The position numbers and the translations under genes are program-made. Under the pieces are notes generated by a model that saw only the letters and a list, made by a program, of their open reading frames with translations, did not search any database and was not told the DNA's origin. This document shows positions 6,667 to 50,854 of a stretch of DNA of 64,000 nucleotides, in pieces. Origin of the DNA: Candidatus Sericytochromatia bacterium (lineage in GTDB: Bacteria > Cyanobacteriota > Sericytochromatia > UBA7694 > JACMQJ01); the NCBI GenBank assembly GCA_026004035.1, contig BPII01000005.1, forward strand, positions 1 through 64,000, written 5' to 3'. Positions within the stretch are counted from its first letter, which is position 1. Every line of letters begins with the position of its first letter.

Positions 6667-7746
6667 TCACTTTTTATTTACAAAAAATAACATTATAGAA
6701 CCAATTACTCCAAAAAGAATATTTTGTATCCATGCTGCAAGTAATGGGTTTAACTGTCCTGTTCCACCTAATGAACGACCAGTATTATATGTTATATACC
6801 ATACAAAAACAAGAGCAATACTAATTGCAACACCAAAGTATGTTCCCATCTTTGCAAATTTTATACCAATTGGAGCAGCTATTAAAGCTACAAAGAATGT
6901 TGCCAAAGGTAATGAGAATTTTAAGTAATAATCAACTTCCATTAATCTTGTATCTATACCTCTTTGTCTAAATTCTTGTAATTGTTTTGCAGCTTCACCT
7001 GAACTTTGCTCTTGAATTGATTTTTGATCTGAAAATATTGTTTTATTTGACAAATCTAATTCTATTTCCATAGTTTCAAAATTTGCTTCATAATGAACAA
7101 AACCTTCAGGTGAATATTTTCTTAAAGTTCCATTTTTTAAAATCCATTTATTATCTTCTCTTGTTGCTGTTTTAGCATTAATTATTTGAGGATATCCAAC
7201 TTTTGTATTGTCAAAAACAAATACATCTTCAAAAACTCCTTTTGCTTTATTTAGTCTCTCTACATAAAAATACCGTTCATCAGAACCTTTATTAAAAAGT
7301 CTTTCTTTTATAGGAGGTAATTTTTGATTAATTATCATATCTTTCATTATTTTTACACTTTGATGATTCGTATGTGGAACAACCTTTTCATTTATTAAAA
7401 ATCCTAAATAACTTATTATTAAAGAAGTAATAAGTATTGGAGTTATCACTCTTGTAAAACTTACACCACAAGCTCTAAGTGCTACGATTTCACTATCTTT
7501 TGATAATCGACCTAAAACTAGTAATGTTGCAAATAAAAATCCAACAGGAAAAGTCAATACTATTATAGCAGGCAAACTATACAGAAGTAAAGAGATTACA
7601 GCACTAGTTGGTAATCCTGTTTTTATTATCATATCAGCAAATAGAAATAAATTATTTGAAAGCATTATTACAACAAATGATGCAACACCAGCACTAAAAG
7701 GCTTTATTAATTCTTTTAATATGTACCTATCTAATATTTTAAACAT
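6667..7746 (-). CDS. LptF/LptG (YjgP/YjgQ) family permease
   Basis: This 359-residue protein has the YjgP/YjgQ layout. An N-terminal amphipathic start (ILDRYILKELIKPF) leads into three membrane helices within about residues 12-125. A beta-jellyroll-like periplasmic region spans about 130-260, and three C-terminal helices follow to residue 356. LptF and LptG form the membrane core of the LptB2FG transporter that extracts lipopolysaccharide from the inner membrane. Only one such gene is present here; some lineages use a single permease as a homodimer. It converges with the upstream protease operon. It supports a diderm envelope. Confidence 0.9.
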   Translation of the reverse strand: MFKILDRYILKELIKPFSAGVASFVVIMLSNNLFLFADMIIKTGLPTSAVISLLLYSLPAIIVLTFPVGFLFATLLVLGRLSKDSEIVALRACGVSFTRVITPILITSLIISYLGFLINEKVVPHTNHQSVKIMKDMIINQKLPPIKERLFNKGSDERYFYVERLNKAKGVFEDVFVFDNTKVGYPQIINAKTATREDNKWILKNGTLRKYSPEGFVHYEANFETMEIELDLSNKTIFSDQKSIQEQSSGEAAKQLQEFRQRGIDTRLMEVDYYLKFSLPLATFFVALIAAPIGIKFAKMGTYFGVAISIALVFVWYITYNTGRSLGGTGQLNPLLAAWIQNILFGVIGSIMLFFVNKK

Positions 7747-7813
7747 TTATTAAAAATAAATTATCAAGATTATATTTTATCATTACTTAATCAATTATCT
7801 TTTTAAATTTAGA

Positions 7814-7819
7814 TATAAT
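7814..7819 (+). promoter_or_regulatory. -10 box of the C39-like gene, leaderless-type spacing
   Basis: TATAAT ends six bases before the ATG, with only ttttatt-like bases between and no ribosome-binding site. The geometry predicts a leaderless mRNA. Confidence 0.55.
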
Positions 7820-7825
7820 TTTATT

Positions 7826-8725
7826 ATGTCTGATATATCAAAAATAAATAGACTTCAACAAGTAAGAACAGTTGAAGCTAGAAAAAAATATAGACAAGAT
7901 GTCCCTGAAAAAGGGAAAATATATTCTGATGTTTTTAGAAGTGAAGGTGATCCTGAAGAAACTATACAAGCTATTCTATATTTTGCTAAAAAAAAATTAA
8001 ATGATAAAGATGAAGGAAGAAAAAAAAGAGAACAAAACAATAAAAAAAAGAAAGAAGAGAAAAAATTTGATGAAAATAAAACTTATGTGATTTCAAGTCC
8101 TGTTTCAGAAACAATGACACAACCAAGAAAGAATGGTTGTGCTCCAACTTGTTTAGCAATGCTTTTAAGAAAATATGGACTTGTAAAAGATGTAAAAGAA
8201 GGATATGAAAAAGTTGAAAATTTAAGAGGTAAGGATGTAAAAGTTTTAAATGATACTGGTTTATCTTTAGAAGATATATCATCTTATGCACAAATGTTAG
8301 GTCTAAAATCAAGAGTTCAAAGAGGTGAAAATTTTATTGTTCAATTTGAAGGACTTTTAAGAGCTTTGAATATAGGTGCAACTCCTATTGCATCTATTCA
8401 ATTACCAGGCATGGGAAATATGAGGCATGCTGTTTTGGTAATAGGAATATCAAATGAAAAAGTCACAATTATAGATCCTGCACAAATAGAAGTTCAAGAA
8501 ATGACTATTGAAGAATTTCAAAAAGCATGGGGAAAACAAAGTGTTTCAAGTTATGGTGTTGGTTTAGCTTATGTTGAAGTATGGGGCCCTAATCCTCAAG
8601 GTAAAATTCATGAACATTTAGATTGGCTTTCTGTATTTCAAGAATTTACAAAAGATAAATTAATGATAAGTTCTATAAATTATAAAAAATCAGAAATACC
8701 AGCTGTTATACCTTTATTTTCTTAG
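7826..8725 (+). CDS. C39-like papain-fold protein with basic N-terminal region
   Basis: Residues 1-90 are hydrophilic, with a Lys/Glu/Arg-rich helix (about 55-85). A peptidase_C39-like domain follows (about 88-250). It shows the expected Gln99, Cys105 within NGCAPTCLAMLLRKYG, His201 within MRHAVLVIGI and Asp217 in TIIDPAQ. C39 domains usually remove double-glycine leader peptides during ABC export, but no ABC transporter domain or neighbour is present and there is no signal peptide. It may be a stand-alone cytoplasmic protease or amidase. It is convergent with the next gene and overlaps its end by 20 bases. Confidence 0.75.
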   Translation: MSDISKINRLQQVRTVEARKKYRQDVPEKGKIYSDVFRSEGDPEETIQAILYFAKKKLNDKDEGRKKREQNNKKKKEEKKFDENKTYVISSPVSETMTQPRKNGCAPTCLAMLLRKYGLVKDVKEGYEKVENLRGKDVKVLNDTGLSLEDISSYAQMLGLKSRVQRGENFIVQFEGLLRALNIGATPIASIQLPGMGNMRHAVLVIGISNEKVTIIDPAQIEVQEMTIEEFQKAWGKQSVSSYGVGLAYVEVWGPNPQGKIHEHLDWLSVFQEFTKDKLMISSINYKKSEIPAVIPLFS

Positions 8726-9146
8726 TAGAACATGAGCTTGAACATGAAGAACCGCATGAACTTTTTATTTTTTTACTAGAAACTTCAAATTTTATACTAA
8801 TATTTTCTACAGGTAAAGATGCTATTTCTCTTTTTATTTTATGAATATTACATTTTTTACAATAAATACCAATGTAATTACAATCTGAACATATTTCTTC
8901 TAAGTTATTTTGAATTAAAAAAATTTTATTTTTATCAAAAGTTAAATCATGTATTGATAAATTATTATTATCAAAGTAATCTACTAAATGGTGAATATTT
9001 TTATTTATAATAATAGATATTTCTCGTAATGAATTATTAATAGAACACTTTTGACAAAATTTATTATATAAATCACATTCTATACAAATATCTTTTAAAT
9101 TATTTACTAAATTATCTAATTTTTTTATATCAAATTCTAAATCCAT
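8706..9146 (-). CDS. Cys-rich protein with duplicated CxxC-x7-CxxC modules and Ser/Cys tail
   Basis: In this 146-residue protein an internal duplication is visible: CIECDLYNKFCQKC (about residues 21-34) and CSDCNYIGIYCKKC (about 85-98), each following a helical DNLxxNLxxI-like segment. The C-terminus has SSCGSSCSSSCST. Each module could bind one Zn or an Fe-S cluster. The tail resembles metal-binding or modified Ser/Cys tails, but I recognise no family. It follows rimI by two bases in the same operon and overlaps the end of the convergent C39-like gene. Confidence 0.7.
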   Translation of the reverse strand: MDLEFDIKKLDNLVNNLKDICIECDLYNKFCQKCSINNSLREISIIINKNIHHLVDYFDNNNLSIHDLTFDKNKIFLIQNNLEEICSDCNYIGIYCKKCNIHKIKREIASLPVENISIKFEVSSKKIKSSCGSSCSSSCSTKKIKV

Positions 9147-9148
9147 AT

Positions 9149-9634
9149 TTAATCTATTGTATCTAAAAAATTTTTATATTGTTCAGTATTTATTTCTTCT
9201 GTCCACATAATAAGAGCATCTTCTCCATCTTGGTGATAATATTTTTTTCTTCTACCTTTTACTGAAAAACCAAATTTTTGATATAGTTTTTGAGCAGGAA
9301 TATTACTTTCTTTAACCTCTAAAGTTGCCCATTTAGCACCTTTTTTTATACCTTCTCTAAGAAGATTTAACAATATTTTTTGTCCTATTTTATTTTTCCT
9401 GTAATCAGGTAAAACTCCCATTATTGTTATATGAACTTCATCTATTATTATCCAAGCACCACCATATGCAATTATTTTATTTTCGTTATTATCTTTAGCT
9501 ACAAGATATATACATTCTTCTTTATCTATTTCTCTCTCAAAAGGTGTTGGTATCCAATTATTACCAAAACAGATTTTTTCTATTTCAAGAACTTTATTTA
9601 TATCTTTTTTATCTAATTTTTCTATTACTATCAT
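9149..9634 (-). CDS. rimI: GNAT acetyltransferase, RimI-like
   Basis: This 161-residue GNAT-fold enzyme resembles ribosomal-protein S18 N-alpha-acetyltransferase. The acetyl-CoA pyrophosphate loop is seen in VLPDYRKNKIGQKIL (R/Q-x-x-G-x pattern), followed by a helix, the ATLEVKESNIPAQKLYQKFG block with the RimI-typical LEV-x-x-N-x-x-A-x-x-LY signature, and KYYHQDGEDALIM. It would acetylate the N-terminus of S18 using acetyl-CoA in the cytoplasm. It is first in a two-gene operon with the Cys-rich protein. Confidence 0.85.
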   Translation of the reverse strand: MIVIEKLDKKDINKVLEIEKICFGNNWIPTPFEREIDKEECIYLVAKDNNENKIIAYGGAWIIIDEVHITIMGVLPDYRKNKIGQKILLNLLREGIKKGAKWATLEVKESNIPAQKLYQKFGFSVKGRRKKYYHQDGEDALIMWTEEINTEQYKNFLDTID

Positions 9635-9709
9635 TTTTTACTGAATTGTTATTTTTAATAAAATGTTTATGTTTAAGTTTTTAGATTTTTAATTTGGAAT
9701 GTTAATTTA

Positions 9710-11287
9710 TTAGTAGTTATAATTATAATCTCTATTTTCATAATAATAGCTAGGTGTTCCATAATTACTATATCCACTACTTCTTCCAGAGTTGTTAAAA
9801 TAGTTAGGACGACTTATATCATATTGATGATGCATTATAAAGCCCCTTTCACCAACAACTATTCCATTACCATTTGGTAGGATATCTATACCATAAAAAG
9901 AAGTACCCACTGTGTTTGCTTGATATTGAGTATCAACTTTTAAATTTTTACCATCAGAAGCTAAAAATACTCCAGGTATTTCATTAACAGCATTACCTAT
10001 TATTTGATTTGGTAGAACATTACTACCTAATACCCATCCTTTACCAGCGGAAATCATACCTACATTTCTTAATGGAACTTGATCCAAATTTGCAGTTGAT
10101 TTATCAAAAGTTCCTCTTACCCATATATCTTTTACTTGATCAAAATAGAACATAAATCCTCTTTTTCCTCTTAAGGAAGATAAAATAGGTGTATATTCAC
10201 CAACAGCCCAACCTTGACTACTATTTAACATTTTTATAGCTTTAACTTCATAAGTTCCATCCCAAGGTTTTACATTATCTAATACACTGCTAAGTAATGT
10301 TGTATTATTAAACCTTGCTCTAGTCCATTTACTACCATCAAACTTAAATATTGAAGGTGGGCCTAAAACTCTTGATTTTCCACCTACCCAAACTTCGTTT
10401 GGACCTAAAGCACAAACTGTATTTAATTCTTTATCTATCTTACTATCTATAGGTTGCCATGAACCTCCTGTATATCTTAATATAAGAGCTTCTCCTTTAT
10501 CTTTACTTCCAACTATCCATCCATCATTAGTACTTACCATATCTATTGCTCTTAATTCACCACCAACAGTCATAGGAAATCTTTCCCAAGAACCATTGTT
10601 ATATCTTATTATAGTACTACCACCAACAGCCCAAGCTTGTCCGTCAGGAGTAACATCAACAGAAAGTAAGTCTTCAGAAACATTAGCATTTCTACTTTCA
10701 TCTATCCAATTACCATTTATATAATGTAATATTGTTCCTCCTTGTCCAACAGCCCAAGCTTCCATGTCATTTACCATTTTTACAGAATATAAATCTTTAT
10801 TTGTAGGACTTATAACTTGTGCCCATATATTCATTGCAGCTGATATATTTACCACAATTGATGTGGAAACTCCACCAATTGTTGCTATCACCTTTGTTTG
10901 TCCTTCTCTTAATGGAGTTAAAACACCTCTTAAATTTATACTAGCAACTTCAGTATTTGAAACTGACCAATTAACAGCATTATAGTTTTTTAGAACTTTA
11001 TTATTATCTAATTTTATATCAACAAAAAATTGTTTAACTTGACCAACAGGTAATGTTACAATATTTGTTTCTTTTTCTTTATCAGACAAACCAGATATTT
11101 TCATATCTACAGGTTTAGTTCCTTCTGGTAAATTTGGTGTAAAATCATTTGTTGGTAAATTATAAGTAGGTGAGCTAAACTCCCTTATAGGCATTTGAGG
11201 TGAAACATTACCATTTACCCTTCCACAACTTGTAGCAAATAAAGTAATTAAAGCTAAACTTAAAATATTATATATTTTTCTATTCAT
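9710..11287 (-). CDS. Lipoprotein with Big2-like domain and Ycf48-like propeller repeats
   Basis: In this 525-residue protein a signal peptide ends in FATSC, with Cys21 as the probable lipidation site. Residues about 60-150 form a bacterial Ig-like (Big2) domain, with SVSNTEVASINLRGVLTPL followed by a GVSTSIVV strand. Residues about 150-490 carry repeats of the type WAVGQGGTILHYINGNW, with MVSTNDGWIVG and MLNSSQGWAVGE, as in Ycf48/BNR-like beta-propellers. The tail is Asn/Tyr/Ser-rich. It probably sits on the outer face of a membrane as a binding or assembly scaffold; the ligand is unknown. A gaggaa ribosome-binding site precedes the ATG. It is monocistronic. Confidence 0.8.
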   Translation of the reverse strand: MNRKIYNILSLALITLFATSCGRVNGNVSPQMPIREFSSPTYNLPTNDFTPNLPEGTKPVDMKISGLSDKEKETNIVTLPVGQVKQFFVDIKLDNNKVLKNYNAVNWSVSNTEVASINLRGVLTPLREGQTKVIATIGGVSTSIVVNISAAMNIWAQVISPTNKDLYSVKMVNDMEAWAVGQGGTILHYINGNWIDESRNANVSEDLLSVDVTPDGQAWAVGGSTIIRYNNGSWERFPMTVGGELRAIDMVSTNDGWIVGSKDKGEALILRYTGGSWQPIDSKIDKELNTVCALGPNEVWVGGKSRVLGPPSIFKFDGSKWTRARFNNTTLLSSVLDNVKPWDGTYEVKAIKMLNSSQGWAVGEYTPILSSLRGKRGFMFYFDQVKDIWVRGTFDKSTANLDQVPLRNVGMISAGKGWVLGSNVLPNQIIGNAVNEIPGVFLASDGKNLKVDTQYQANTVGTSFYGIDILPNGNGIVVGERGFIMHHQYDISRPNYFNNSGRSSGYSNYGTPSYYYENRDYNYNY

Positions 11288-11395
11288 TATAAATATTCCT
11301 CTACTCTACTACCTAAAGTTATAGGATATATTAATTTATAACTTGTTATTTAAATAATAAATTTAAATGAAAATTAAATATAAAATAATCTATTC

Positions 11396-14300
11396 TTAAA
11401 TAGGAAAATATAAATGAAAAGTAGCACCTTTATTTTTACCTTCACTTTCAACAGCAATTTTTCCATTCATTTCTGTCATTGCATTAGCACATGTATGAAG
11501 TCCAAAACCATGTCCATTTTTTTTTGTAGTAAAACCATGAGTAAATATTTTATTTAAATTTTCTTTATCTATACCTATACCATTATCTGTAAAACTTAAT
11601 ACAACATAATTATCTTTAACAATAGTTCTAATTTCTATTATTTTCTCTTTTGTATCTACTAAGGCATCTCTAGCATTTTTTATTAAATTAAATAAAATAC
11701 TTAATACTTTTGACTTTTGTATATTTATTTTTGGAGTTTTGGAATATTTCTTTATTACATTGATATTTTCTTTTGTCAATGTTTCATAGTGCATTGATAA
11801 TACATCTTCTATAATATTTTCAATATATACTGATTCTATCATAAAATCTTTCTTAGCATAACTCTGTTGAGTGTTTATTATATTTTTTATTAAAAATATT
11901 TTTTCTGATAATAATTTTATTTCTTTTTTTAAATCTTCATTTTCTTTTAATAATGAATCACCTATTTTCAGATAATATTCTAGAAGTTTTCTTCCTTTCT
12001 CATTATTTAATATAAAATTTTCTAAATTATTAATATTTTCTCTTAATAAATTATTAGCTTTTATTAGACCATTAATTTTTGAATTAGATATTATATCATT
12101 TATTATCTGATTTGATACATTTATACTATTTAAAACATTGCCAATATTGTGCAATAAACCTGTAGTTATTTCAGCTATTCCAGACGTGTAAGCATTTTCT
12201 ATAAGTTTTCTTTGTGTTAATTTTAACTCTTTTGTTCTTCTATTCACAGTTTCTTCAAGTATGGTTTTATTTTCTTCTAATTTAATATTTAAGTTTCTCA
12301 TGTCATTATAAAGTTTTGCATTTTCTAAAGATATTGCTAATTGAGAAGAAACTAGTTTTAATAACTTAACTCTATTATATGTAAATGCTCCTAAAGTTAA
12401 ATTATTTTCTAAATAAAGAATTCCTAGAAGTTCTTGTTGTTTTAAAATAGGAATACAAATTATTGATTTAGGTTTATTTTCTAATATATATTTATCAGAA
12501 AGAAATATTACATCATTATATGCATCATCAATAATAATTTCTTTATTTGTTCTTTGAACGTAATTAACTACTGATTTAGCTAAATAATCAAACTCATTTA
12601 AATCAATACCTTCAAAAATAGTTGCTTCCCTACTATTTATTGTGTATTCAGATATAACAACAAATTTACTATTTTGATTTAAAATTAAATATCCTTTTTG
12701 TGCTCCTGCATTTTCTATAACTATTTTCATATATTTGGAAATTAATTTATCTAAGAAAACTTCTTCAGATAAAGCTTGATAGGCTTTCATTATTGTGTTT
12801 AAATCAAGTTCTATATCTTCATTTATTTGTAAATTTCCTGTATTCGATGTTGACCTATAATTAATATGATATAAATAATAAGAATATTTTTTTTCAATAT
12901 CTAAAACTTTACTTTTAGCACCCAGAAAGTTAAAATCATTATAAGAGTTAGATATATATTCTCTTGCTTCTTGATTTTTACCTTGATATATCATAAATTT
13001 TGCTACTAGTTCATTGGCTATTGCTTTTATGTTAATATAATTATATTTATCTGCTAATTCTATAGATTTTTTATATAATGCAAGTGCTCCTTCATTATCT
13101 TTTTTTATTCTTTTTAATTCAGCATCAACAAGATAATATTTTGCTAAAAAGTTACTTACACATTTTTCTGAAAATTGTTTTAATTGTTTCTGATTATTTT
13201 TAATAATTTTTAAATATCTTTTAAAAATAATATTTGGTGATTTGGAAAATTTAGCTATTAGTATTAACGAATAATAAAAAAGAAATTCAGCTATCAAAAT
13301 ATTTCCTAGTAAAAAATCTTTATTTTTTTCAAATTCTTCAGCATGTTCTAATGCTTTATCATAGTTTCCTAATAAGAAAAATATTAACATTTTAATAAAG
13401 TGTGCTATTGCTATTGTAGTATAATTTTTTTTCTTTTTTAAATCTTTGAAAAAAAGCTCTTCATTAAAATTATCGTCACTTAAGGATACAAAATTATATG
13501 TCATTCCTTTTAAATTGAGTATTAATTGTTTTGTAAGTGTAAATATATCTATTGAATCAGGATTATTTATTTTGTATATTTTTTCAGAATATATTTCTAT
13601 TTTATTGTATATATCGTCAATATTGTTACCAATTAGAAATAAATATAATAGAATATAGTTTATTGAGTATGAATAATATATTGGATCAGAATTATCAACA
13701 TTAAATTTTGAGTTTATAGATAGAATATCTATACTTGATTTTAAATGATTTCTCCATGGATTTATTAGACAAGCATATATAAAATTAAGTCTCATTTTCA
13801 TGACATTATTTTCAAATGTTTCTCCTAATTTTCTAGCTTCATGGATTATTTCAGAATTATTTATATTTTTACTATCTAATAAAACAGCTAAACTTATAAA
13901 AGAAAAGCTTGAATAATAATTACTACCATTTTTTAAAACACTTTTGAACATTTTTAAAATAGCTAAAAACATTAATTGTCTATCATGCATATAAGAAGCT
14001 GTTATTAGTGCTGAATATAAACTAAGTTTTAGAATATATTTGAAGTCATTGTTTATATTTTTTTCAAAGTCTAGAAAATTTATTTTTTGAATTTTTCTTT
14101 TTATAAAGAAATAGTATAAATAGGTTTCTAAATTTTTTATTCCAAATGATATATTTGTTCCTAAAAATCTAAGTCCATTAATAGAGTATTCAATAGAAGT
14201 TTTTAATTTATTCATTGATAGATATAAAAAAGCTAGTTTTTCACATAAAATAGCTTTATCTAAATTATTATTTGTTTTTTTATATACTTTTAATAAAAGT

Positions 14301-30464: not shown

Positions 30465-30657
30465 AACAAAAACATTAAAATTATTATTAAAAAAATTCAG
30501 AATTACCAAAGGATATAGAAGAAAAGATAAATAATTGTAATGACTTAAATAAATTAGACTTAATTATTGACAATATTTTTGATATTTCTTCTTTAGATGA
30601 AATAAATAACTTTTTAAAATGACTTATTTAATAAACAACTCTATTAAAATAATTTTT

Positions 30658-31678
30658 ATGGAAAATAAAGAGCTATATAAAATCTATGACAGAAATTATA
30701 GAGAGTTTTTTTCAAATAAATTTGCAATAAAAGAATTATTAGAAACATTTGTAAATGTAGATTTAGTCAAATATATAGACTTTAATAGTATAGAATAATA
30801 AATAAATCATTTATTCTTGATAATAATAAAGAAAAAGAATCTGATATTATTTATAAAATAAAACTAAAAGAACAATATTCTGATATATCACTATATATAG
30901 TTATATTACTAGAATTTCAATCAAGTGTAGATAAAAATATGCTTTATAGAATGATAGAATATACATTGTTATTATACAAAGAATTAGAAAAAACAAATAA
31001 AAAGTTACCCCCTGTTTTTCCAATAGTTTTATACACAGGTAGTAAAAAATGGAATGTTCCTAATGATATAAATCAAATAGTAAAAGGTAATGAATTACTA
31101 AAAGAATATGGACTTAAATTTAAATATTTTCTTTTAGATGTAAATAAATATACAAAAAAACAATTACAAGAAATAGGAAATATAATATCAACATTATTTT
31201 TAGCTGAAATAATAGAAAGCTGAAAATATTCAAGAATTAGGAAATCAAATTGATAAATTGATAGAAAATGAAAATAATAAAGAAAATATTAAACAGCTAA
31301 TAAAATTTATTCTAAATATTTATAAGAAAGATAAAGAAATAGACTATAATAAATTACAGGAAGAGTTAAATAGTAAATTTAGGAGTGGCTCTATGTTAGT
31401 TGAAAATGTTCTTGAATTTGAAAGAGAAGCTGAATTAAGAGGTATTGAAAAAGGTATCGAAAAAGGTAAAATTGAAGGTAAAATTGAAGGTAAAATTGAA
31501 GGTAAAATTGAAACATTAAAACAAAAACATTAAAATTATTATTAAAAAAATTCAGAAGTTACCAAAGGATATAGAAGAAAAGATAAATAATTGTAATGAC
31601 TTAAATAAATTAGACTTAATTATTGACAATATTTTTGATATTTCTTCTTTAGATGAAATAAATAACTTTTTAAAATGA
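30658..31678 (+). pseudogene. Rpn-family nuclease, array copy 3, frameshifted
   Basis: The start aligns with copy 2. A one-base deletion near 30795 puts a stop early in the gene, a one-base insertion near 31218 breaks it again, and the tail has the same frame loss as copy 2 (ending LKQKH). The nuclease core (from MLYRMIEYTLLLYKEL) is readable in pieces. The deletion near 30795 is shared with copy 4, so the two copies have a common broken ancestor. The internal start at 31393 remains, with an expanded GKIE repeat. Confidence 0.85.
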
Positions 31679-31712
31679 TTATTTAATAATCAAATCTATT
31701 AAAATAATTTTT

Positions 31713-32740
31713 ATGGAAAATAAAGAGCTATATAAAATCTATGACAGAAATTATAGAGAGTTTTTTTCAAATAAATTTGCAATAAAAGAATTATTAGAAA
31801 CATTTGTAAATGTAGATTTAGTCAAATATATAGACTTTAATAGTATAGAATAATAAATAAATCATTTATTCTTGATAATAATAAAGAAAAAGAATCTGAT
31901 ATTATTTATAAAATAAAACTAAAAGAACAATATTCTGATATATCACTATATATAGTTATATTACTAGAATTTCAATCAAGTGTAGATAAAAATATGCTTT
32001 ATAGAATGATAGAATATACATTGCTTATTATACAAAGAATTAGAAAAAACAAATAAAAATTACCCCCTGTTTTTCCAATAGTTTTATACACAGGTAGTAA
32101 AAAATGGAATGTTCCTAATGATATAAATCAAATAGTAAAAGGTAATGAATTATTAAAAGATTATGGACTTAAATTTAAATATTTTCTTATTAGATGTAAA
32201 TAAATATACAAAAAAACAATTACAAGAAATAGGAAATATAATATCTACTTTATTTTTAGCTGAAATAATAGAAGCTGAAAATATTCATGAATTAGGAAAT
32301 CAAATTGATAAATTGATAGAAAATACAAGATAATAAAGAAAGTATTAAACAGCTAATAAAATTTGTATCTGAAGATTTACAAGAAAGATAAAGAAATAGA
32401 CTATAATAAATTACAGGAAGAGTTAAATAGTAAATTTAGGAGTGGCTCTATGTTAGTTGAAAATATTCTTAAATTTGAAAAAAAAGCTGAATTAAAGAGG
32501 TATTGAAAAAGGTATTGAAAAAGGTAAAATTGAAGGTATTGAAAGAAGGTAAGAATTGAAGGTAAAATTGAAGACGTTAAAAACAAAAACATTAAAATTA
32601 TTATTAAAAAAATTCAGAAAGTTACCAAAGGATGTAGAAGAAAAGATACAAAATTGTAATGACTTAAATAAATTAGACTTAATTATTGACAATATTTTTG
32701 ATATTTCTATTTAGATGAAATAAATAACTTTTTAAAATGA
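31713..32740 (+). pseudogene. Rpn-family nuclease, array copy 4, heavily indel-broken
   Basis: This is the most damaged copy. It shares the early one-base deletion with copy 3 (near 31850) and has further short insertions or deletions at about 32025, 32057, 32190, 32326, 32366, 32497, 32540 and 32712. Most are one to four bases in otherwise near-identical sequence, so part of this may be assembly error in a repeat. The internal AGGAG/ATG (32438/32450) is kept but its frame stops after about 16 codons. Confidence 0.85.
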
Positions 32741-48895: not shown

Positions 48896-49606
48896 TTAAT
48901 ATTTTTCTTTTATAAGTAAATGATATTTGTTTTCAAAAATAGAATCTTTGAATCCATTATTATTACAAAAATCAGTTAAATTTTCAATTAAATTTTTATT
49001 TTTTATTAGATTCATTGGATGTTCTTTTTCTCCTACCTTGCCCTTACTTAATATAAGTAATCCTGAAGAATTTAATAATTCATAAAATTTTTTTATATGT
49101 ATCTCCGGTTTTTCTAATACTTCTATTACATCAAGAGCTATTATTATATCAAATTTAGTTTTAATTTGGTTTAGTGATGTGTATATATCTATATTCAAAT
49201 TTTTTCTTTTAAATCTCCATTTTGCAAAATTTAATGTTTCACTTGGTACTTCCAAAAAACTTACATCAATGTTTTTACTTGCTAAATTTATACTTAGTTC
49301 TCCTATACCACCTCCAAAATCTAAAACTTTTCCTTTTCTTATAGAACATATTTGTGAAATATAATTTATTATATCTTGATATTTTTTTTCAGAATTCCAT
49401 TTTACAAGACAATACATTGAATATTTACTATTGCAGTGAAAATATAATGTAGATATACTAGAAAATTCTTCCCATTCCAAATTTCTATTTTTTAAAGCAT
49501 TTTTTAGTATCTCTAGTATTTCATCTTCCTTTTTTCCTGTATATAAAGTAAGCTCGTAGATTTTTTCATCAATTATTTCTTTTGAATATGTAGTTTCATA
49601 CAGCAT
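48896..49606 (-). CDS. SAM-dependent methyltransferase
   Basis: In this 236-residue protein motif I is KVLDFGGGIGELSINLA (about residue 95), followed by a motif II region with VSFLEVPSE, FDIIIALDVIEVLEKPEIH and LLNSSGLLILSK. This is a standard class I methyltransferase of the UbiE/COQ5 type, with unknown substrate. The start shares one base with the stop of the calpain-like gene, so the two are coupled. Confidence 0.8.
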   Translation of the reverse strand: MLYETTYSKEIIDEKIYELTLYTGKKEDEILEILKNALKNRNLEWEEFSSISTLYFHCNSKYSMYCLVKWNSEKKYQDIINYISQICSIRKGKVLDFGGGIGELSINLASKNIDVSFLEVPSETLNFAKWRFKRKNLNIDIYTSLNQIKTKFDIIIALDVIEVLEKPEIHIKKFYELLNSSGLLILSKGKVGEKEHPMNLIKNKNLIENLTDFCNNNGFKDSIFENKYHLLIKEKY

Positions 49607-50685
49607 TAGAAAAATCTTTTAAATATATTTTTTATACCTGTAAATTTTCCTTCTTCTTCTGTTTCAAAAGATATATCTAGAAAGTATTTCCTCAAATCTT
49701 TTACATTGAAAGCCATAAGTCCATCTGTATTAGTAACTTCTTTTACTTTTCCGTTTTCATCATAAAATTCATATTTACCATATGGATCTCTTATATATAC
49801 AATCCCTTTTTCTTTATCAAGACCTGTTATTGTCATGATATGAGCTTTACTCAATTTATATTCATTTTTTTTAGGATTAAAAATTGTAGATATATTTCCT
49901 TTTAAAAAAGTACAAATTGTTATTACTTTTTTATTATTCAAATATTTTTCTATGTTATCTAATAACTTTTTTTCATCATAAAAATCTAATAAAAAACTTT
50001 CAGCTCTATGTCCTGTTTGTGTTTCTATACCTTCCCAAGTCAAACCATAATCTGATACAAAGTCTTTAGCAAAAATATGTTTAAAAGGTCTTCCTCCACT
50101 TTCACCATATTTAGTATATGCATTTACCATTAAAGGAACCCAAATAGAACCATTTTTGCCTGGAAAAATTAATTTTTCTAAATCATTAGTACTAGGATAA
50201 TTTACTTTAAAAGTATTATTTCCTTTTATACCAGGAAAAGTAATAGTGAATGTATTATCTCTATTTTTATCTATCATTTTTAAAATATCATCTTCTCTTT
50301 TATTTAAAGCTAATCCTGCCAAAGATGCTAAAAAGTAACAAACATTTCTTTTCCCTTGTTGAATATCACTGATAGATATCTTAGTAATGCCTCCTGGGAA
50401 AACTTTTTCATCTAATTCTACTAATTCATAAACAAGTTTTTCATTAGAGTTAATAGCTTTTTGTATTTTATTTAAAACTAATTCACTACTTTCAGAATCA
50501 AAACCAAAATTTAATAATTCATCCTTTGAAACTATATTATCATTATTTTTATCTACTTCTTTTAAAATTTCATCATATATAATTCCTTTATCTGTTTTAT
50601 CTGTGTCTAATTGATTTAATAAGCTTTGATAAGTTCCTGTTTTTTTATTAAAGTCAGTTAGTTCTACTAAATAAATTATAATCAT
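49606..50685 (-). CDS. EF-hand and calpain-like cysteine protease
   Basis: This 359-residue frame has an EF-hand loop at 45-56 (DKNNDNIVSKDE, with acidic or Asn ligands at 1, 3, 5, 9 and 12) and a weaker one near 27-39. A calpain-type (C2) domain follows, with Cys116 in QQGKRNVCYFLASLAGLAL, the SIWVPLMVNAYTKYGESGG block, and His282 in SKAHIMTITGLD. The usual third-site Asn is Asp300 (IRDPYG). The frame has no signal peptide, but one is encoded just upstream in another frame, so this is probably the 3' part of a secreted lipoprotein gene. It is coupled to a methyltransferase. Confidence 0.75.
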   Translation of the reverse strand: MIIIYLVELTDFNKKTGTYQSLLNQLDTDKTDKGIIYDEILKEVDKNNDNIVSKDELLNFGFDSESSELVLNKIQKAINSNEKLVYELVELDEKVFPGGITKISISDIQQGKRNVCYFLASLAGLALNKREDDILKMIDKNRDNTFTITFPGIKGNNTFKVNYPSTNDLEKLIFPGKNGSIWVPLMVNAYTKYGESGGRPFKHIFAKDFVSDYGLTWEGIETQTGHRAESFLLDFYDEKKLLDNIEKYLNNKKVITICTFLKGNISTIFNPKKNEYKLSKAHIMTITGLDKEKGIVYIRDPYGKYEFYDENGKVKEVTNTDGLMAFNVKDLRKYFLDISFETEEEGKFTGIKNIFKRFF

Positions 50686-50818
50686 TTAACTTTGATACAA
50701 TATTACCTTGATTATTATTAATATTATCTGTACTAGAATAGTTATAAATTACATTAGAGTTATTATTACAAGAAAATGTAAATAAACTTACTAATAAAAA
50801 AATACACTTTTTTTTCAT
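50654..50818 (-). pseudogene. Frameshifted lipoprotein N-terminus of the calpain-like gene
   Basis: The 54-residue frame starts with signal peptide MKKKCIFLLVSLFTFSC (lipobox Cys17) and an Asn-rich spacer. It runs to a TGA that overlaps the first codons of the calpain-like frame by about 30 bases. A single-base change in gattataatttatttagtag would join the two. The downstream ATG has no ribosome-binding site. The frame break could be real, phase-variable or a sequence error. Confidence 0.55.
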
Positions 50819-50854
50819 AATTAGATATTATATCAATAAAATTGATAATATAGG

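Follow-up and report, generated by a model that had tools for sequence, protein, structure and literature searches.

The gene for a calpain-like protease in the genome of a Sericytochromatia bacterium is split, in the assembled sequence, from a lipoprotein leader that overlaps its start one base out of step, and this observation is confirmed and exceeds chance. Judging from the sequence, we consider that the natural gene probably encodes, in a single frame, an exported cysteine protease held by a lipid anchor, and that the one-base offset would most likely be a residual extra base left in the assembly. The predicted protein would then consist of a lipoprotein signal with an Asn-rich tether, followed by an EF-hand loop and by a C2 core with Cys116, His282 and Asp300. 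Once exported and lipid-modified with the help of signal peptidase II, the putative protease would work on the cell surface or within the periplasm, and the EF-hand loop would probably serve it as a calcium sensor or stabiliser.

The DNA that was analysed, called the window below, is a stretch of 64,000 nucleotides. The coordinates of the features are collected in Table 1.

Table 1. Features around the split protease gene, in window coordinates.
Feature	Position	Strand	Basis or remark
Lipoprotein leader frame, 54 codons	50654–50818	−	Reading and lipobox scan; coding score favours the leader frame to ~50670
Overlap zone, in which the coding signal moves from leader to protease frame with a one-base offset	50654–50685	−	Best switch at 50671
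EF-hand/calpain-like (Peptidase_C2) frame, 359 codons	49606–50685	−	PF00648 match
Canonical EF-hand loop, residues 45–56	50518–50553	−	Direct reading; EF-hand_1 19.4 bits vs cut-off 25.4
Cys116 codon, calpain nucleophile position	50338–50340	−	Invariant in 11/11; in register with solved calpains
His282 codon, calpain general base position	49840–49842	−	Invariant in 11/11
Asp300 codon, Asn position of calpains	49786–49788	−	Asp in 3/11, Asn in 8/11 aligned
SAM-dependent methyltransferase frame	48896–49606	−	Start overlaps protease stop by one base

Leader and Protease Frames

The leader frame opens with an ATG at 50818 and closes with a stop codon at 50656–50654. A charged start is followed by a hydrophobic stretch, a Cys at codon 17 (50768–50770) and an Asn/Ser-rich tail, as expected from the initial annotation, which had described a 54-residue lipoprotein leader with a lipobox Cys. 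No recognisable domain was matched in it. The overlap of about 30 bases reported there, with the two frames out of step, is also confirmed: the protease frame starts at the ATG at 50685, overlaps the leader by 32 nt and is offset from it by one base.

The genome contains one other C2 copy (40% identity over residues 74–358), and a family search found no further Peptidase_C2 gene in it beyond these two. This paralog, too, has a lipoprotein leader in front, which overlaps the protease frame and, at the corresponding junction, is likewise shifted by one base against it. In both genes the protease ATG lies inside the overlap. Both copies have the charged start, the hydrophobic stretch and the lipobox Cys, as judged by a lenient scan pattern, and in neither do the signal and the mature protein share one frame as assembled. 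The window copy has Thr at position −3 of the lipobox, where Leu is the usual residue and Thr is weaker.

The lipobox scan was applied to 443,274 bases of the same genome, of which 72,000 were masked and 371,274 readable. It returned 14 candidates, including one that lies opposite a longer ORF in antisense. A short leader overlapping a long frame was seen in two of the 14, and these are exactly the two C2 genes of the genome. A chance leader is ruled out, because a second one recurs ahead of the paralog. An alternative genetic code was also considered and set aside, since it is the reading frame that changes at the junction. The upstream neighbour of the paralog (L002, 2601–3185) is another lipoprotein, in frame, with sub-cut-off matches to models of DNA-repair and other proteins.

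To locate the frame change, we used a coding model based on 240 training ORFs, with the calpain ORFs excluded. In the window gene the best switch point scores 6.6 bits over a switch at the protease ATG, and in the paralog the best point likewise falls after the ATG, with a gain of 4.6 bits over the ATG itself. As the leader frame thus keeps the coding signal beyond the start of the protease, the arrangement resembles one gene cut in two. The view that leader and protease belong together is supported both by this signal and by the same arrangement in the paralog, and the two halves very probably belong to one lipoprotein.

The start signals are less informative. It had been pointed out that the protease frame lacks a ribosome-binding site; this holds for its ATG, but it does not distinguish the frame, as the leader has none either. 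An SD-like motif precedes 70 of the 185 ORFs of at least 200 aa, compared with 128 of 2000 random positions, a control that is somewhat too low since about one sixth of these positions fall in masked sequence. A TATAAT motif is found 8 bases ahead of the leader ATG (50819–50832), and the leader transcript is possibly leaderless. The pattern TANNNT at a spacing of 5–9 bases occurs upstream of 52 of the 185 ORFs and at 357 of 2000 random positions, about one sixth of them again masked, so that the enrichment is slight.

At its other end, the protease gene shares the final base of its stop codon with the start of the methyltransferase frame; the two therefore probably form one operon. The methyltransferase frame gives a PADLOC match to mad2 (2.1e-07), which probably reflects the general methyltransferase fold only.

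Protease Core and EF-Hand Loop

The assignment as a calpain-like C2 protease is borne out by a match to Peptidase_C2 (PF00648) with E 2.1e-11 and 43.9 bits, above the curated cut-off of 23.8, and by the alignment of the triad positions. The paralog scores 55.3 bits against the same cut-off. NCBIfam gave no match for either of them. In an alignment of 11 sequences (the window protein, the paralog and nine relatives), the oxyanion Gln (Q110), C116 and H282 are invariant in all 11. The third catalytic residue is Asp300 instead of Asn, in agreement with the initial annotation; Asp is shared by the window protein, the paralog and one same-class relative (one of the nine other relatives), while the remaining eight have Asn. 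Asp in place of Asn at this position of calpains is a known variation. A profile of the 11 sequences matches solved calpains with a best E of 5.1e-19, with the same residues in register.

Calcium-binding loops had also been claimed. One canonical EF-hand loop can indeed be read directly, whereas the Pfam EF-hand models, which match the window protein around residues 37–60, all remain below their cut-offs (19.4 vs 25.4 bits for EF-hand_1). In the paralog no EF-hand match is present. Among nine relatives that were scanned, EF-hand models score above the Pfam cut-offs in seven but not in the other two. The seven are calpain-like proteases with N-terminal EF-hands (loci L003, L004, L005, L007, L008, L010 and L012). 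PMC4631099 describes bacterial calpain homologues as having no EF-hand domain; the union of EF-hand and C2 in seven of the nine relatives contradicts this statement and is the more novel point. No report of bacterial EF-hand calpains was found in the titles and abstract openings of the papers listed in the literature searched, which does not prove their absence from it. The N-terminal EF-hand calpains of the related genomes bear on the origin of calcium control in calpains.

The description of such proteases as uncommon in bacteria needs to be qualified: Peptidase_C2 is above the cut-off in 59 of 386 genomes of the phylum, the present genome counted. Judged by the PPC-like relatives, this phylum would be Cyanobacteriota. 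For the suggested role as a candidate effector, we found no support in the present analysis, and PADLOC gave no match to a defence system for either protease. The structure predicted from the window sequence alone has a mean pLDDT of 36.5 and is unusable.

Frame Breaks in the Assembly

It is important to note that the calpain gene is not the only broken one. The assembly has a completeness of 74.9%. When proteins of a genome of the same family (G001) were aligned to it with frame shifts allowed, seven of 39 genes were broken, with 19 extra and 0 missing bases. The same procedure with proteins of a second genome (G008) gave 18 genes, four of them broken, with 8 extra and 0 missing bases, all 8 being among the 19. 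These figures were obtained after an overlap filter; the first such alignment (44 genes, 22 extra and 1 missing base) included ORFs judged to be antisense. The reverse controls were not clean, as two of 39 genes on G001 and two of 31 on G008 were shifted (3 extra, 1 missing). An identical base adjoins 17 of the 19 extra bases, against an expected fraction of 0.53 (P 8e-4), with positions that are uncertain by a few bases in protein-guided alignments.

Seventeen of the 19 extra bases are concentrated in a single patch of ~4.7 kb, from rpsL to rplW, while elsewhere one of 33 aligned genes is broken; the stretches of G001 and G008 were chosen partly to cover fusA–rplD, and breaks there are accordingly over-represented. 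The patch (L028, 2234–6931, corresponding to ~66.2–70.9 kb of G000:C5, just past the window) hits rpsL, fusA, rpsJ, rplC, rplD and rplW. According to the gene names, which were given by reading of the translations, fusA, rplC and rplD are cut several times. Ribosomal protein L4 gives four separate match stretches here, compared with a single match in 10 of 12 relatives and none in the other two. Canonical EF-G is a frame of 487 aa here and one frame of 700–732 aa in eight of 12 relatives, the best matches in the other four being partial or distant. Outside the main patch, metG, Sua5 and der are split with the same sign, and their pieces match successive parts of the proteins. The breaks in these housekeeping genes are most simply explained as insertion-type sequence errors, since no cell could live with all such genes broken.

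We have also scanned for frame-switch pairs, of which 147 and then 176 were listed; true breaks are mixed with ordinary gene overlaps in these lists, and the scans serve as a lead only. The calpain ORFs were included in their training set. Among the pairs without a start codon near the stop in the 176-pair scan, the sign is +1 in 27 and +2 in 14. The contig end that carries the paralog has 11 switch-like pairs of sign +1 in 14 kb. Many switch-like pairs, on both strands, are present in L036 at ~7000–14007 (end of contig C12), including der and, by eye, a PhoD-like gene. Within the window, two near-identical gene copies at 30610–31223 and 31674–32333, which resemble the Rpn/PD-(D/E)XK nuclease type, are split at the same place, and the second is broken further. 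The frames next to the window protease gene look intact by length.

The suspicion of a sequence problem at the junction is strengthened by these extra-base breaks, which include essential genes. A residual extra base is our leading explanation because the break in the calpain gene shares its sign with the breaks in the essential genes. Together, the leaders ahead of both C2 genes, the coding signal that extends past both ATGs and the broken essential genes make it the likeliest one. If it is correct, extra bases are crowded into one or more patches of the draft genome and interrupt genes such as fusA, rplC and rplD, and other findings of split genes in this genome call for equal caution.

Several observations speak against an extra base. 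Both paralogs break within the same zone of ~30–50 bases, a coincidence that we estimate random errors to produce in only a few per cent of cases, even with the high rate of switch-like pairs at the contig end of the paralog. The paralog junction contains a near-perfect 13-base tandem repeat, whose appearance suggests genuine slippage more than a read error. The concentration of the extra bases in one patch, the neighbouring frames that look intact and the unclean reverse controls weigh in the same direction, as do the relatives, for which no leader was seen in the loci read and among which no joined frame was found.

Relatives and Alternative Explanations

The initial annotation had named orthologues beginning at the second ATG without any leader as the observation that would speak against its proposal, and here the outcome is mixed: no lipobox was flagged in the relatives that were read, while the paralog, the closest relative, has a leader that is out of step. 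All 10 loci from the order and the class were free of a flagged lipobox at the first three Met starts. At the level of the phylum, none was flagged in the 17 readable loci of 29, some of which are the same genes as the order and class loci; several frames may extend beyond the locus or use another start. Searches of genome contigs with the window protein and with a two-copy alignment returned no relative with a joined leader–protease frame, nor did searches of viral contigs and of the own order, or of the class with the paralog. In the phylum, the two-copy alignment gave no match closer than those from the order and the class. The window protein is matched in six of the seven genomes of its order, its own counted. 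The family has one further genome among those listed, G001, and no match to the C2 protease was found in it.

The clustering of the breaks, the zone shared by the paralogs and the tandem repeat are the reasons why a real loss of the anchor and a frame switch have to be weighed as rivals. A real break is a serious competitor to sequence error. In that case small insertions at the junction would have detached the leader of each paralog, leaving a cytoplasmic protease translated from the internal ATG, like its relatives. The common junction and the repeat at the paralog fit this scenario, and so do the protease frames, which are intact and each have an ATG in the overlap, and the lack of a leader in the relatives that were read. 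On the other hand, the first codons after the ATG at 50685 score higher in the leader frame, as only a recent break would allow if the break is real. The leaders, moreover, show no sign of decay, and essential genes of the assembly have breaks of the same sign. On balance, we regard anchor loss as rather unlikely.

Another option considered was that the frame is switched in the living cell, by programmed +1 frameshifting or by slippage at a repeat, such that each gene would yield both an anchored and a soluble protease. The two paralogous calpains, of which one has an EF-hand loop, share both the position and the sign of the offset, and short two-unit repeats occur at both junctions. However, no slippery motif common to the two junctions could be found by eye, the repeats seen by eye have two units only, far from the many short repeats of a typical phase-variable tract, and the same-sign breaks elsewhere in the assembly have no common motif. 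That a frame switch decides between a surface-anchored and a soluble enzyme is thus improbable in our judgement, and the mechanism itself equally so; if the sequence is right, the genes would represent calpains for which a frame switch sets the location in the cell.

Two separate products, a small lipoprotein and a translationally coupled protease independent of it, would agree with the protease ATG within the overlap and with the start codons that lie at or just before the upstream stop in many of the listed frame-switch pairs, but no domain is recognisable in the leader and in both copies the coding profile resembles one gene cut in two, which makes this the least probable case, and very improbable.

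Comparison with Known Systems

We now turn to the known systems that are closest to the single lipoprotein protease proposed here. The layout of the leader, with its lipobox-like Cys, is that of lipoproteins processed by signal peptidase II, from which the present gene differs in that its leader and its enzyme do not share a frame in the assembly. The solved calpain-1, -2, -8 and -9 (PF00648) show the oxyanion Gln, the Cys, the His and the third catalytic position in matching order. The window protein has Asp at the third position, whereas calpains have Asn, and its EF-hand is located N-terminal to the protease and not C-terminal. No other calpain domains were matched in it in Pfam.

Among bacterial enzymes, Tpr of Porphyromonas gingivalis is also a C2 protease, likened here by its description in PMC4631099, according to which it was as of 2015 the only one with biochemistry. 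The same source states that some bacterial calpain homologues have predicted signal peptides and may be secreted. Cyanobacterial calpains are described in PMC9380684 as CysPc with or without PPC and with a C/H/N triad. The present protein resembles the homologues described in these two papers in being a C2 protease without the eukaryotic accessory domains, and it differs from them, as so described, in having an EF-hand loop, an Asp at the third catalytic position and a lipoprotein leader.
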